The position numbers were made by a program, and so were the translations under genes. From Bdellovibrio sp. ZAP7 (GTDB lineage Bacteria > Bdellovibrionota > Bdellovibrionia > Bdellovibrionales > Bdellovibrionaceae): 64,000 bases of DNA. The DNA is taken from positions 2,170,001-2,234,000 of the forward strand of contig NZ_CP030082.1 of NCBI RefSeq assembly GCF_006874645.1, given 5' to 3'. Shown here in pieces: positions 21,560 to 36,723 of this stretch. The notes under the pieces are model-generated. The model was not told the origin of the DNA and did not search any database. It worked only from the letters and a program-made list of their open reading frames with translations. Each line of letters begins with the position of its first letter. Within the stretch, counting starts at the first letter, position 1.

Positions 21560-22516
21560 CTAAAACAAAGACGTTAATTGCAGCTTCAGGTAAGGACTTG
21601 TTCCCAAGTGAATCGCATTCTTGGGGCTGATATCATAGTTCTCATCCTGAAAATAACGGCGATCAAATGAATATCCCGCTTCCACTTCCGTCATAAACTG
21701 CATAGACAGTGGAGTTTTAAATCCGACGTACACACGCTTTTCATCATAAAACAGACGCTCTTTACGGTTCGCTCGTCCATACAAATAATAAGTAGACTGA
21801 GAAAAATCCAATCCCAAGGAAGCCTTCATTGGCCCCGCGATAGAGTAATCCACTGAAGTTTTAATCACCCAAGGAATCAACGTGAAGAAGTTAAGAGACC
21901 ACCGGTCGACAAACTCCCAATAGATCGTCGCGAAGGGAGCCCCGAATGTCCCGCGGAAAGTTTTCGAAGGCGTGTACATATAAGCAAAACCCGGAAGAGG
22001 AATTCCATTCAGGATCGGGCGATTGTTCGAATAATTCACCAAATAAACCCAGCTGCCAGTTTCATCCACCGGATCGATATAAAAGAAATTTCCGCCGATA
22101 GTATCTACCGAAGGATCTTTAAACGGTTTATCACTGGCAGAACCAAAGTTTCCGTTCAAAGCCCAATAAGCTTTTTCATCCACCATGCGAGTGTACGTCA
22201 ATCCCACGTCAAATTGATAAAGATCCGGCATAGCTGCTTGGTCAGGATACAAATCCATCCAATGTCCCAACATGCTAACGCCATAACTTTCTTTTTCAGT
22301 CTTATAAACCGGAACGCTGGTGATGACCGTGCCACGATTTAAGCTAGCCTTGCCGTCCGTTGAATTGAACGTCGTATCTGGCTGGATGGAACCTGTGTAA
22401 GTTAAAACTCCGCGCTGCTTCGAAGGAGGCATCAAGCCTGAAAACATTTGCGCATGAGCCGCGAATGAGCAAAAAATCAGAACAGTAAAAATAACTTTTG
22501 AAAAACAATTCTTCAT
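21560..22516 (-). CDS. Exported outer-membrane-type protein, probably a beta-barrel
   Basis: 318 residues with a clear signal peptide (MKNCFSKVIFTVLIFCSFAAHA, cleavage after AHA). The mature part is rich in aromatic residues with alternating hydrophobic strands (YQFDVGLTYTRMV, YWALNGNFGS, STYYLYGRAN, VYVGFKTPL) and ends in F, as outer-membrane barrels do. It looks like the alginate/DUF-type or copper-resistance-like barrels but I cannot name it. Its ATG overlaps the stop of the upstream 107-residue gene as TAATG. Confidence 0.75.
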   Translation of the reverse strand: MKNCFSKVIFTVLIFCSFAAHAQMFSGLMPPSKQRGVLTYTGSIQPDTTFNSTDGKASLNRGTVITSVPVYKTEKESYGVSMLGHWMDLYPDQAAMPDLYQFDVGLTYTRMVDEKAYWALNGNFGSASDKPFKDPSVDTIGGNFFYIDPVDETGSWVYLVNYSNNRPILNGIPLPGFAYMYTPSKTFRGTFGAPFATIYWEFVDRWSLNFFTLIPWVIKTSVDYSIAGPMKASLGLDFSQSTYYLYGRANRKERLFYDEKRVYVGFKTPLSMQFMTEVEAGYSFDRRYFQDENYDISPKNAIHLGTSPYLKLQLTSLF

Positions 22517-22839
22517 TAAAAATCCTGCAGTCCTAAAATGTCTTTACAAATATCCATCTGACGATCAATTTCAGCGACGGCTTTTTGCAATCGCAACGCA
22601 TCTCGCGCATCGACTTCCGCCTCCATCGCAGCAAGGACGATGGGGTGTTTCTTAAGCCAGGCCCCTTGCTTAGAAGCATAATTTTCGGGAACACCGGAAC
22701 GAAACGCCGCCAAGCGAGCGTTGCCATCACGAAGATATTCCACGATGAATTTCAAAGTCTCCAAAGTCAGGAGCTTGCGATGAGCTTTTAAGCGAGATGA
22801 GAAACCAACTTGTCGGATGCGCATACGATGATGATACAT
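22516..22839 (-). CDS. Small helix-turn-helix-like protein with terminase-small-subunit resemblance
   Basis: 107 residues. The stretch LKFIVEYLRDGNARLAAFRSGVPENYASKQGAWLKKHP has the shape of the DNA-binding part of phage terminase small subunits (a variable-residue helix, an xAAxxxG turn and xxxxGxxLLxxP). No other phage gene is near, so a chromosomal DNA-binding protein is more likely. It is translationally coupled (TAATG) to the exported barrel protein gene. Neither candidate start (22839 or 22824) has a ribosome binding site. Confidence 0.6.
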   Translation of the reverse strand: MYHHRMRIRQVGFSSRLKAHRKLLTLETLKFIVEYLRDGNARLAAFRSGVPENYASKQGAWLKKHPIVLAAMEAEVDARDALRLQKAVAEIDRQMDICKDILGLQDF

Positions 22840-24418: not shown

Positions 24419-24730
24419 TTATATGACCTCGTCAGACACAGCTTCCCAGAGCTCCTCTTTGAGGAGCTCTTTTTCATGCAGCCCCAGTTCTTTCATATAG
24501 TCTTTGATCAGTTCAATTTTTAGCATCTTGGATGTGTGAGCATCCATTTCCAGCGTCTGAATGATTTGCTCCAACCGCGAAGTTGGGACCGTTTGTTTTC
24601 CAGTCAAAATACGAGAAACAAAACTTGGATTGACCGCAAGGTCTTTAGCGAAATTGCGTAACGAATATTTAGGATTTAGATTCTGTCTTCTCTCCAAAGC
24701 AGATCTTAAGATATGATGCACTCGACTCAC
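24419..24730 (-). CDS. Helix-turn-helix regulator related to the N-terminus of TIGR02147 proteins
   Basis: 103 residues from the GTG at 24730, which has AGGGA 7 nt upstream; an in-frame TTG at 24772 would add 14. The region NPKYSLRNFAKDLAVNPSFVSRILTGKQTVPTSRLEQI matches the helix-turn-helix of the TIGR02147/DUF4423 regulators (compare the 249-residue protein at 35974-36723), but the long C-terminal domain is absent. It may be a stand-alone repressor or a truncated paralogue. Its 3' end contains the terminator of the opposing transporter gene, which encodes ELLKEELW. Confidence 0.75.
   Translation of the reverse strand: MSRVHHILRSALERRQNLNPKYSLRNFAKDLAVNPSFVSRILTGKQTVPTSRLEQIIQTLEMDAHTSKMLKIELIKDYMKELGLHEKELLKEELWEAVSDEVI
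24449..24474 (+). terminator. Intrinsic terminator of the transporter gene, inside the convergent gene
   Basis: Perfect GAGCTCCTC-TTT-GAGGAGCTC stem (9 bp, 3-nt loop) followed by TTTTT on the plus strand, 48 bases after the transporter stop. The same bases are codons of the HTH gene on the other strand. Confidence 0.9.
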
Positions 24731-24804
24731 TTGTTGTTCCCTACCCCTCAGTGTCACTTTGCTCCCCTGCAAAGCTCATGAAAGATAAAAAGCAAATCGT
24801 GTAC

Positions 24805-24860: not shown

Positions 24861-24893
24861 GAAAAACCCGATACATTTCTGCATCGGGTTTCA
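24861..24893 (-). terminator. Intrinsic terminator after the 41-residue exported peptide gene
   Basis: On the minus strand AAACCCGATGCA, loop, then TATCGGGTTTTT and a further T-rich run. It ends the unit regulator (25078-25869) plus small peptide. Confidence 0.85.
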
Positions 24894-24921: not shown

Positions 24922-24967
24922 GCTATCTACCGTTTCCTGATATCGGAAACAGCTATCTGCCGTTTCC
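24922..24967 (-). repeat. In-frame tandem duplication of the peptide gene's 3' end
   Basis: The 16-nt unit GCTATCTrCCGTTTCC occurs at 24922-24937 and 24952-24967, identical at 15 of 16 positions, 30 nt apart. On the minus strand each copy reads GGAAACGGyAGATAG, that is G-N-G-R-stop, and 30 nt keeps the frame. So the peptide's C-terminus and stop codon are duplicated. Confidence 0.75.
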
Positions 24968-25078
24968 ATGCGGAGGTTGGTTACCAGAACCACCAGAAGA
25001 TCCGCCACCTGCGTATGCACTTTGGCCAGCGCCAATAACTAGAATCGAAGCAATAAGTAGTGCGATAAATAGTTTCAT
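24953..25078 (-). CDS. 41-residue exported Gly-rich peptide, coupled to a regulator gene
   Basis: Too short for routine calling. ATG at 25078 shares its A with the TAA of the upstream regulator (TAATG). Residues 1-23 are a clean signal peptide (MKLFIALLIASILVIGAG, then QSAYA for cleavage). The mature peptide is only about 18 residues: a GGGSSGGSG run, then NQPPHGNGR. After the TAG, the frame continues nine codons to a second G-N-G-R-stop. A good terminator follows. Export plus coupling to a regulator suggests a signal peptide or a small envelope protein; no homologue family recognised. Confidence 0.7.
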   Translation of the reverse strand: MKLFIALLIASILVIGAGQSAYAGGGSSGGSGNQPPHGNGR

Positions 25079-25869
25079 TATTCATTCTCCAAAAGCGTGT
25101 CGATCGCCGTGAAAGCAAAAACCGGAATGTTTCCTTTTGCTTCAGGTTTTTCGAGAAGCTTTACGCGTTCTTTAAAAGCGCGCTCTTCAATCAAAATCCA
25201 TTCACGATATGTCTCTTCGCTAATTGATTCGAAGTAAACATTCATTAAGTTCGCGAAGTTAACGTCGGAGTTACCCGGCTTTAAATATCGCTCTGTGAGC
25301 CTGATTCCCACGGATTTAATAGTTTCCGCAGAAAATGGTGCTCTCACCTCACCTTGCCCATAAAGTCCATTCCCGAGGGGTCGGAGAACTTTTTGGTCAA
25401 TCATGCGTTCGAGCACGCCTAAACCATAAGAACCGAATCTCTGTTGGACAAAATTAGCATCGAAGGGGCGAGTTTCAGCCAGAACATAAAGCTCCGTGAA
25501 ACAAGGATCTTTCTGCAAATCTGCTTCAAGATCAAAATTAAAACGATGAAGGGGCGAAGACTTTAATTGTGGATCCGTCTTTTCAAGCTTTTCGCGAACC
25601 GAAGGCGGAACCTTCGTAACCAGATGAGTAAGATCGCGAGTATCAAGCAAGCAGGAATACAATTTGTAAAGAGTGGAGTAATTTGGATTGTGAGATTTCT
25701 CTCGCAATCTGTTCAGCGTCTTTACATGAATCTGGGACTTCGTCGCCAACATACTTAGACCCTTTTTCGGGTCCTTGAAACGCAACAAGTAAGTCTCAAT
25801 ATCCTGGGACACTTGGTCCGGAATTGAACTTACCGTTTGGCGCTCGTTTAGTTCGACGTTAATTTCCAT
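25078..25869 (-). CDS. Predicted transcriptional regulator, TIGR02147-like
   Basis: 263 residues. An N-terminal helix-turn-helix of lambda-repressor type is seen in KGLSMLATKSQIHVKTLNRLREKSHNPNYSTLYKLYSCLL (about 37-76). It is followed by an all-helical region with a second winged-helix-like part (RFGSYGLGVLERMIDQKVLRPLGNGLYGQGE), as in the TIGR02147/DUF4423 family that is expanded in Bdellovibrio and Fibrobacter. The assignment is from overall plan, so moderate. It is coupled by TAATG to the 41-residue exported peptide, which makes the peptide a likely partner or target. Confidence 0.75.
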   Translation of the reverse strand: MEINVELNERQTVSSIPDQVSQDIETYLLRFKDPKKGLSMLATKSQIHVKTLNRLREKSHNPNYSTLYKLYSCLLDTRDLTHLVTKVPPSVREKLEKTDPQLKSSPLHRFNFDLEADLQKDPCFTELYVLAETRPFDANFVQQRFGSYGLGVLERMIDQKVLRPLGNGLYGQGEVRAPFSAETIKSVGIRLTERYLKPGNSDVNFANLMNVYFESISEETYREWILIEERAFKERVKLLEKPEAKGNIPVFAFTAIDTLLENE

Positions 25870-25938
25870 TGTTCCCCATCAATCGATGGCTTTCACTATC
25901 TCAGGACGGGGTTCAATGCAACGAGACAAACGACTTTC

Positions 25939-25958
25939 GGGGCTTGGTGTCAAGCCCC
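25939..25958. terminator. Compact hairpin downstream of the 155-residue exported protein
   Basis: GGGGCTTG-GTGT-CAAGCCCC, a perfect 8-bp GC-rich stem with a 4-nt loop, 25 bases past the stop at 25983 on the minus strand. No T-run follows, so it may be an RNA-stabilising 3' structure or a Rho-assisted terminator. Confidence 0.5.
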
Positions 25959-25982
25959 GGAGTCCTTACTAACAGTAAGTAA

Positions 25983-26564: not shown

Positions 26565-26620
26565 ATTGTTGGACAGACCAAACTTTGTCCAAAGTTTGTC
26601 TGGACAAAGTTGGATGTGTC
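26565..26620. repeat. Cluster of TTTGTCC-type inverted and direct repeats in a promoter-sized gap
   Basis: Within the 252-base gap ahead of the 155-residue exported protein gene, CAGACcAAACTTTG is followed after 2 nt by CAAAGTTTGTCTG (one bulge), then a further GGACAAAGTT and GTGTCC. Repeated half-sites of this kind usually bind a regulator or form an RNA hairpin. The rest of 26451-26702 holds no gene; a GCCCG/CGGGC hairpin lies at about 26685-26702. Confidence 0.45.
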
Positions 26621-26702
26621 CAGCGTCAGGCGCGATTTTTAAGGCGCGCCGCGAAGGGATCTTGAGAAGATTTTGATAAACGGCGCCCGATTTTAACGGG
26701 CT

Positions 26703-34704: not shown

Positions 34705-35331
34705 TTAAGGGTAGATCGGAATTTCAAGTCCTTGAATGAATTTCCAGAATTTTTCACTGTCGTACTTTTCGCCAAAGACAAATCTATTAAAGGCTCTGGC
34801 TTTCACGGAATCCGTTGCCCCCAACTTCATCAGATGTTCATAGATGATTTCATGAGAAATCATTCCTGCTTGTTGCACTGGCGACAGGCGATCCCAAAGA
34901 TCCTGGCTGATAATGAATGTCTTTTCACTAGGCAATGGCGAACGTTTACGGATCACCACCTGAAGCACTTCACAATGGGCCTCTGCTGGCTTAAAAAGGT
35001 GATTAGAGTCTTTGATGTTTGTTAGCGCAACACCCGCTTTAAAATCAATTTCTGAACGGATGGCCTTGAGACGACTTAGATACTGCTCACCCAATTTTGG
35101 TGCGACACTTTTAAGGTCAGTAAACTTCTTCTCAACTATCGCGTAGGGATCTTTCTCGCTCGCATTGGGTTTTAAATTCCCTTCATAGAAATCCAGGATC
35201 TGCGCGGACTCATTCGAGCCTTTGCAAAAAACACCATCCCCACCATTGCCGACTTTATTGCCTTCCGCCTGCACCAGACATACGGAAAGCAAAATCAAAA
35301 TAGAACTGCTAACGGGATAACGGAATTTCAT
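34705..35331 (-). CDS. Exported NGGDGV-type protein with metalloprotease-like HE motif
   Basis: 208 residues from the ATG at 35331, with a signal peptide (MKFRYPVSSSILILLSVCLVQA). The mature N-terminus NKVGNGGDGVFCKG and then ILDFYEG are a pattern I associate with a recurrent exported family in Bdellovibrio. Later, the stretch QQAGMISHEIIYEHLMKLGA carries an H-E-x3-E-H arrangement reminiscent of, but not equal to, a zinc-protease HExxH. Activity is unproven. It overlaps the upstream lipoprotein gene by 23 nt and so belongs to the TIGR02147 regulator operon. Confidence 0.78.
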   Translation of the reverse strand: MKFRYPVSSSILILLSVCLVQAEGNKVGNGGDGVFCKGSNESAQILDFYEGNLKPNASEKDPYAIVEKKFTDLKSVAPKLGEQYLSRLKAIRSEIDFKAGVALTNIKDSNHLFKPAEAHCEVLQVVIRKRSPLPSEKTFIISQDLWDRLSPVQQAGMISHEIIYEHLMKLGATDSVKARAFNRFVFGEKYDSEKFWKFIQGLEIPIYP

Positions 35332-35974
35332 ATACGCCTCTTTTACCATCCACAGTCATCACGTCAATTACCAGGGTTGTCAGCTCTGCATTCGGTGGTT
35401 TGTTAAGCAAAAGCCAGCGGCGCAAAAACATTTTTGCAGGGACAGACACTGGTGCATACAGATGAGTACTTGGAACTTTGATCACTTCGTTTGCGTGACG
35501 CTGGTCTGCGGTGATTCCTGCGACCGCCGCCCATCCAATCCCTCCCAGTGCCGCTGCAGACCCTAAAGAAGATACAGTTGAATTTTTACTGGTTGCAGCC
35601 AATACACCCGCACCCATTAATGAAGCCTGAATGATATCCTGATTTAACTTATCGACTTTTGCTTGAGCTTGTTTTGCCTCAGCCCAGTCCACTAAGTCTT
35701 GCCCTAAGACGGCGCTGACTTTGCTTTCTGCAGGATTTGGCAAGCGTGGGCGAATCGACTCGATACGAACCCACTCTTCGGAAGTGTTTTCGATGGTTAC
35801 TTCGATCAATTGGAAGCTGTCTCTTTTAGAGTAATCCAGATTTTCGGCACTGACGTTAATTTTGATGGGATTTGGTTCATCATACGAATGCCCCATAGCG
35901 CCGGGATGAACGCTGGCGCAGGAAACCAGTAAGCTTGATAAGAAGATTGCCAAGGTGATGCTTAGATTTTTCAT
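35309..35974 (-). CDS. Lipoprotein of unknown function, coupled to a TIGR02147 regulator
   Basis: 221 residues with lipobox LVSC (C19). An immunoglobulin-like early part (FQLIEVTIENTSEEWVRIESIRPRLP) is followed by an Ala/Gly-rich hydrophobic segment (ASLMGAGVLAATS...AAALGGIGWAAVAGI) that may insert in a membrane, and a beta-rich end. Its ATG overlaps the regulator stop as TAATG, and its end overlaps the NGGDGV gene. Regulator, lipoprotein and putative exported enzyme are thus one unit. Confidence 0.8.
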   Translation of the reverse strand: MKNLSITLAIFLSSLLVSCASVHPGAMGHSYDEPNPIKINVSAENLDYSKRDSFQLIEVTIENTSEEWVRIESIRPRLPNPAESKVSAVLGQDLVDWAEAKQAQAKVDKLNQDIIQASLMGAGVLAATSKNSTVSSLGSAAALGGIGWAAVAGITADQRHANEVIKVPSTHLYAPVSVPAKMFLRRWLLLNKPPNAELTTLVIDVMTVDGKRGVYEIPLSR

Positions 35975-36723
35975 TATTTCTCCAAAGGGGATGTAACGGG
36001 AACAAATTGAACATTTAAACTGTAAACTTCGGTACCAGCAGACTTACCAGAAAGGTCCGAGGCATTTTCCAGGAAATCATCGATCAGCTTTTTAAAGGCC
36101 TCGATCTTTTTTGGATTGATCGGCAACGACATGGATTGAATCTGGCGCAGACTGTTTTCGACTGTATCTATTTTCTCGATAGCCAGGTCTAAATTCTGTT
36201 TGTGGTATTTGCGGATGGCTTCAGAAGGTATTTCCGAATCCACATCCAACAAATTACCTACTTGCTTGAACTTAGGCTTAGTCTGCAGAATCCCCATGCG
36301 TTCCATTCTAAGAACAGCCTGATGGGCCTCTTCCACACTGATTCCCAGCCGACGCGCTATCCAGCGAGGGTCAGCCTTTGAATCCTTGATGCGGGTCAGA
36401 CTTAAGATCGCGAAGTGATACCAGTCTGAAATCACGTGAAAGCGATCTTGATCTAATTTCACTCGATAAACCTCTTGAGGTTGCCGAGAGCCGTCTTTTA
36501 AAAGAGCCTGGGCAATCTCGCTTTTTTCTGTTGGCGAAAGATCCAAACGGGAGCCCATTTTTTTCATGGTTTTTACCGTAATGGTTCGTTTGCCCGTCAT
36601 CATCTGTGACAGCTGTGCTGGGCTGACTTCCAGATATCTGGCAAACGCTCTGAGGGAGAAATTTGGATTTCTCTCGCGGCGTTTATCAAATTCCAGTTTT
36701 AATAGCTCTTGTGCTGTTTGCAT
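35974..36723 (-). CDS. TIGR02147/DUF4423-family regulator
   Basis: 249 residues. The helix-turn-helix NFSLRAFARYLEVSPAQLSQMMTGKRTITVKTMKKM (about 20-55) and the later DWYHFAILSLTRIKDSKADPRWIARRLGISVEEAHQAVLRMERMGIL are both typical of this family. The second motif is the DUF4423 start with a winged helix. The family is expanded in Bdellovibrio and Fibrobacter and is largely uncharacterised. It heads a coupled unit with a lipoprotein and an exported protein. Confidence 0.9.
   Translation of the reverse strand: MQTAQELLKLEFDKRRERNPNFSLRAFARYLEVSPAQLSQMMTGKRTITVKTMKKMGSRLDLSPTEKSEIAQALLKDGSRQPQEVYRVKLDQDRFHVISDWYHFAILSLTRIKDSKADPRWIARRLGISVEEAHQAVLRMERMGILQTKPKFKQVGNLLDVDSEIPSEAIRKYHKQNLDLAIEKIDTVENSLRQIQSMSLPINPKKIEAFKKLIDDFLENASDLSGKSAGTEVYSLNVQFVPVTSPLEK

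Follow-up and report, generated by a model that had tools for sequence, protein, structure and literature searches.

Why should a DNA-binding regulator be tied, through overlapping stop and start codons, to the gene of an exported peptide of only 41 residues? The question is raised by a locus on the minus strand of a 64,000-nucleotide stretch of the Bdellovibrio sp. ZAP7 chromosome (hereafter the window). Read along that strand, the locus consists of a gene for an exported protein (U), a 113-nt spacer with a GC hairpin, the regulator gene (R), the peptide gene (D) and a terminator (Table 1). Much of the initial annotation of this DNA is borne out by our analysis: the stop codon of the regulator and the start codon of the peptide overlap as TAATG, the peptide carries a signal sequence followed by a short mature part, and a hairpin with a T-rich tail closes the unit. 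The peptide reads MKLFIALLIASILVIGAGQSAYA followed by GGGSSGGSGNQPPHGNGR, and cleavage after AYA would leave 18 mature residues. Signal peptides were called from hydropathy throughout, and some ORF starts are approximate.

Table 1. Features of the U-R-D locus, with positions counted within the window
Feature	Position	Strand	Remarks
Operator-like palindrome 1, GGACA-N10-TGTCC	26602..26621	.	171-152 nt before U start codon
Operator-like palindrome 2, GGACA-N10-TGTCC	26571..26590	.	31 bp from palindrome 1; candidate R site
U, exported protein, 155 aa, signal peptide, no Gly segment	25983..26450	-	ORF translation; kept upstream of R
GC-rich RNA hairpin in U-R spacer, no T tail	25938..25959	-	region z-score -4.0
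R, regulator, 263 aa, TAA stop	25078..25869	-	Xre-type HTH ~14-93 and winged helix ~112-200
TAATG, overlap of R stop and D start (last A common to both)	25076..25080	-	
D, exported peptide, 41 aa	24953..25078	-	signal peptide ~25078-25010, then mature GGGSSGGSGNQPPHGNGR
Intrinsic terminator at end of R-D	24863..24892	-	13-pair stem, T-rich tail

The TAATG overlap is predicted to couple the translation of R and D. Nearly every U-R spacer that we folded contains a strong hairpin, which is probably the 3' end or an attenuator of the U transcript. A sigma-70 scan found no promoter.

Signal-peptide ORFs coupled in this manner lie behind just 3 of the 54 other genes of the window. Homologues of R were found in 14 of 60 relatives, and a coupled D follows every R homologue of at least 47% identity. 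Conservation of the peptide beside the regulator in relatives had been named as a check in the initial annotation, and wherever a close relative has R, D indeed lies next to it. Within the nearest group, dN values for D range from 0.03 to 0.15 against dS values of 0.4 to 1.8, and the mature part alone gives the same picture. With dN at about a tenth of dS, D is under purifying selection. Because dN lies far under dS, mature part included, we consider D to be translated and kept. The recurrence of the pair in all close R homologues, together with the dN/dS of D, argues that the association of R with D goes beyond chance. At one locus (L103, G098:C7) the R homologue contains one in-frame TAA and the D gene is intact. 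A look-alike of the peptide at genome position 457370 was discarded as an unrelated Gly/His-rich protein.

The pair extends well beyond the close relatives. A profile search with R returned matches in 85 of 369 genomes of the phylum, distributed over 34 genera. Within the genus the regulator is patchy, being present in 10 of 24 genomes, and the module is therefore not essential. An ORF with a signal peptide follows R in 83 of the 85 R frames examined across the phylum, a set that includes a few duplicates of one locus. Counted from the stop of R, the start codons of the 78 distinct D genes all fall within -20 to +15 nt, 33 of them at -4 (ATGA). The signal peptide is directly followed by GG in 74 of these 78 D proteins versus none of 36 U proteins, the Gly segments of D taking forms such as GVGGISGG, GGDYGGGP and GGGSAGGSG. 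Most D proteins are 85-230 aa long; the 39-49 aa form is limited to Bdellovibrio and near relatives, and a short D beside an HTH regulator is seen in 13 Bdellovibrio/Pseudobdellovibrio entries. The 41-aa peptide and R are the small form of a larger, phylum-wide module of up to three genes (U-R-D). A literature search, in which coverage of subscription journals was poor, found no description of this module, which is apparently undescribed so far, in line with the initial annotation's view of the layout as new.

The relationship between U and D clarifies what the small peptide may once have been. The gene upstream of R encodes the exported protein U, whose domain is also the domain of many long D proteins. 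Identity between U and D is 56% in L012, 24-27% in L011 and L016, and up to 66% in L096, and an iterated U profile recovers D genes throughout. Across 22 loci with both genes, U scored a mean of 213 against the D of its own locus versus 85 in permutations (p <= 5e-5). Since the two share a domain and U matches its own D within loci, D can be regarded as a copy of U with a Gly tip. Certain D proteins, for example those of the GGDYGGGP type, have domains other than that of U. In a tree of 69 R proteins, the entries with short D form one clade (support 100/99) and call for one change: the domain disappeared on a single occasion, and the Gly tip persisted. The 41-aa D is thus the long partner cut down to its Gly tip in Bdellovibrio. 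Because the short-D clade keeps the Gly segment under purifying selection, the tip seems to work without the domain, and a 41-aa form that persists with no domain at all suggests that the tip is of value by itself.

Searches of Pfam and NCBIfam matched neither U nor D to a family, the U sequence found no convincing match in the PDB, and a structure model of U (pLDDT 50) was too poor to interpret. This genome also holds two U paralogues without R, at G000:C1 1192969-1193433 (L173) and 3255866-3256321 (L178), which have neither a D nor the palindromes of Table 1; several Bdellovibrio genomes carry related U genes without an R.

The regulator had been annotated as TIGR02147-like, a label that holds at a distance only. 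The TIGR02147 model matched neither the window protein nor 14 members of its family at E <= 1, nor 52 members at E <= 0.1, and searches of R against Pfam and NCBIfam, DUF4423 included, returned nothing over cut-off. Comparison of a 52-protein R profile with the TIGR02147 profile using hhalign gave 77.5% (E 1.9e-5) over 150 columns spanning the HTH and the winged helix; a smaller R profile gave 42%. R is probably distant kin of the TIGR02147 proteins and not a member, and these searches point to an uncatalogued regulator family. An AlphaFold2 model of R, built from six sequences (pLDDT 71, with a poorly predicted C-terminal end), shows an Xre-type HTH at residues 14-93 and a winged helix at 112-200. 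Residues 14-93 align structurally to the HTH domains of DdrO, SinR and ComR with Z scores of 6-7. A TPR repeat array was not seen in the model, whose C-terminal end is poor, nor was a ligand-binding domain recognised in R, and Foldseek found no match to the model at E <= 0.001. Weak matches of R to antitoxin models concern HTH proteins; a reading of the pair as a small-peptide toxin-antitoxin system was set aside, the long D homologues being exported proteins with a further domain.

If R is a DNA-binding protein, its operator should accompany the genes that it controls. The sequence GGACA-N10-TGTCC has two matches in the whole 4.12-Mb genome, both upstream of U (in the window, 2 observed versus 0.05 expected); the pattern GGACAA-N5-9-TTGTCC was too strict as an operator description and was replaced by this one. 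The dyad was first noticed by inspection in ten Bdellovibrio loci and then tested as GACA-N0-14-TGTC (0-14 nt spacing allowed) within 220 nt before U. It is found before U in 30 of 34 R-bearing loci, including 21 of the 24 outside the first ten, and the R-bearing loci hold 47 dyads versus 1.1 in dinucleotide shuffles. Among U paralogues without R, 1 of 16 has a dyad. Directly before R the dyad is present in 16 of 43 loci without a recognised U versus 2 of 40 with U. The dyad therefore goes with whichever gene leads the R cluster, which is what one would expect of the operator of R itself. It is very likely, from these distributions, that R binds the palindromes and controls U, and the position of the palindromes, about 125-171 nt before the start codon of U, would suit an activator. 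A generic scan that required exact tandem dyads missed the distant loci, because their spacing and arms vary. In one family (f12; L084-L092 and L100) the distance from the dyad to R is about 400-470 nt, and in most of these loci no exported ORF was found in the interval, which may represent an extended leader, an RNA or a gene that was overlooked.

The distant relatives of R in the same genome follow a comparable plan. We counted 39 TIGR02147 matches corresponding to about 35 TIGR02147-type genes. In the combined list, R included, 15 of 36 are directly coupled to exported genes versus 3 of the 54 other genes of the window (Fisher p = 4e-5). The exported partners of the TIGR02147-type genes are mostly 220-430 aa long and mostly without a Pfam family, and they carry GNGG, SGGGG or GNAG shortly behind the signal peptide. 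We searched this genome for the exact motif GNGG: 61 coding sites were found, 7 of them in signal-peptide context. Six of the seven proteins are encoded directly behind TIGR02147-type regulators and the seventh (34705-35349) by the third gene of an overlapping operon led by the TIGR02147 regulator 35974-36723. Because all seven lie in TIGR02147-type operons, post-signal GNGG goes with these regulators and not with export in general. The TIGR02147 family (Fsuc_second, DUF4423) of Bdellovibrio and Fibrobacter thus resembles R in consisting of distantly related HTH and winged-helix regulators, and in being coupled in this genome to exported genes, most with a post-signal Gly motif; it differs in that R matches neither TIGR02147 nor DUF4423 and has exported partners of another family. 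Regulators of R's general layout form a large paralogous group in Bdellovibrio that is barely covered in the literature: in the literature that we searched TIGR02147 is not named, and DUF4423 is mentioned by one paper, in passing.

Two of these operons deserve description in their own right. The operon at 34705-36723 (minus strand), an independent second unit in the window, comprises the TIGR02147 regulator, an overlapping lipoprotein-like gene and an overlapping exported protein with GNGGD after its signal peptide and also a HEIIYEH stretch. At L042 (G000:C1 943200-946900), the exported partner coupled to a TIGR02147 regulator is 432 aa long; it has a GNGG tip, and ankyrin repeats at its C-terminus.

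Taken together, these observations led us to an explanation in which D is an input to R. R would sit on the tandem palindromes before U and control U. D would be translated with R, its constant part being a signal peptide and then, immediately, a Gly-rich segment; the long D would in effect be U plus a Gly tip, of which Bdellovibrio would export just the 18-residue tip. R, or a complex containing R, would recognise the signal-peptide/Gly segment of D, and the output of U would depend on whether D still waits in the cytoplasm, has been exported or has been consumed along with U. We put the chance that this explanation holds as a whole at about even. Its least certain part is the proposal that D is what R senses, which we advance with somewhat less than even confidence. 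The proposal, which is the simplest account and gives D its most likely role, draws on what does not vary: the overlap with R and the signal-peptide/Gly segment are always there, whereas the domains of D differ or are missing. The restriction of post-signal GNGG to operons of related regulators in this genome likewise suggests that D acts back on R, conceivably as a sensor of export, and some form of feedback by the exported partner is at least possible. The Gly segment could equally serve the assembly of U or a surface function.

The main rival takes up this last point. D may partner U in structure or assembly, either within the envelope or extracellularly, with the Gly tip anchoring, nucleating or spacing a U-containing structure; R would then just control expression, and the R-D coupling would set the dose of a minor component. 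Such a partnership would fit the paralogy of the two exported proteins and their matching within loci, and also the hairpin between U and R, which suggests that much U and little R-D is made. The initial annotation had likewise offered a small envelope component as its alternative, and this is possible for D. However, a whole clade has lost the very domain shared with U and yet kept the Gly tip, and assembly of U leaves unexplained why unrelated exported proteins bear a similar Gly motif only where their genes belong to operons of related regulators. We therefore consider the structural partnership rather unlikely.

The initial annotation had preferred peptide signalling as known in Gram-positive bacteria, in which the secreted 18-residue peptide would re-enter the cytoplasm of neighbouring cells and bind R in the manner of the RRNPP regulators (Rgg, ComR, PlcR, AimR). 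The 13 entries in which a short exported peptide is coupled to an HTH regulator, the conservation of the mature peptide and the N-terminal Xre-type HTH all recall those systems, where a short exported peptide gene adjoins the regulator gene. Nevertheless, D is a protein of 85-230 aa in most of the phylum, the ancestral partner of R is a full protein, and the model of R, with its poorly predicted C-terminal end, combines an HTH with a winged helix and shows no TPR receptor domain. D furthermore carries a signal peptide of the classical type, with an AxA-like site, and its mature part is Gly-rich, with a core that is common to several species, unlike species-specific pheromones; no importer is linked to the locus. 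Signalling of this kind is unsupported by our analysis and, we believe, improbable.

Still less probable is a function of the Gly segment as a tag for sorting or processing in an export route, independent of R. Its placement, nearly always directly after the signal peptide, is what a tag would show, but the 7 of 7 post-signal GNGG proteins of this genome that belong to regulator operons, and the U proteins of the same loci that never have the segment, speak against it. Finally, we reject the view of the 41-aa ORF as an artefact or as a decaying remnant kept just for its overlap with the end of R, which we hold to be extremely improbable even though D is a shortened form of a longer ancestor: dN is held by selection to about a tenth of dS, the mature part included, the overlap with R is merely 1-4 nt, and signal peptide and Gly core are retained across the one short clade.

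For the preferred explanation, in which R responds to D, a parallel in working only is provided by FlgM-FliA, a case of secretion-coupled regulation. There as here, an exported partner may titrate or inform a transcription regulator; unlike FliA, R looks like an operator-binding protein rather than a sigma factor, the signal peptide of D is of the Sec type, and the interaction of R with D is putative. A more tentative extension, which we think doubtful, is that such circuits monitor export throughout the phylum: the regulator would take signal peptide plus Gly segment as its ligand, and the cell would thereby sense its own secretion. If true, dozens of HTH and winged-helix regulators of Bdellovibrionota would adjust a sister exported protein to secretion, and the 41-aa peptide would be the minimal natural ligand. 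The overlap, the Gly motif rule and the target-only operator turn unknown predator genes into testable sets of regulator, target and partner, and the domain-less 41-aa form makes the mechanism directly testable.

Further genes on the minus strand of the window are worth recording. Downstream of R-D, a 117-aa HTH protein (24419-24772) weakly matches the N-terminal part of TIGR02147 (E 1e-5) and the HTH models of AimR and HigA. We place it outside the module because it is seen in this genome and one other (G022) but not in the other close loci. At 21560-22839, the genes of a 107-aa protein and, behind it, of a 318-aa exported protein share one base between stop and start codon; here too a small cytoplasmic protein is coupled to an exported one.
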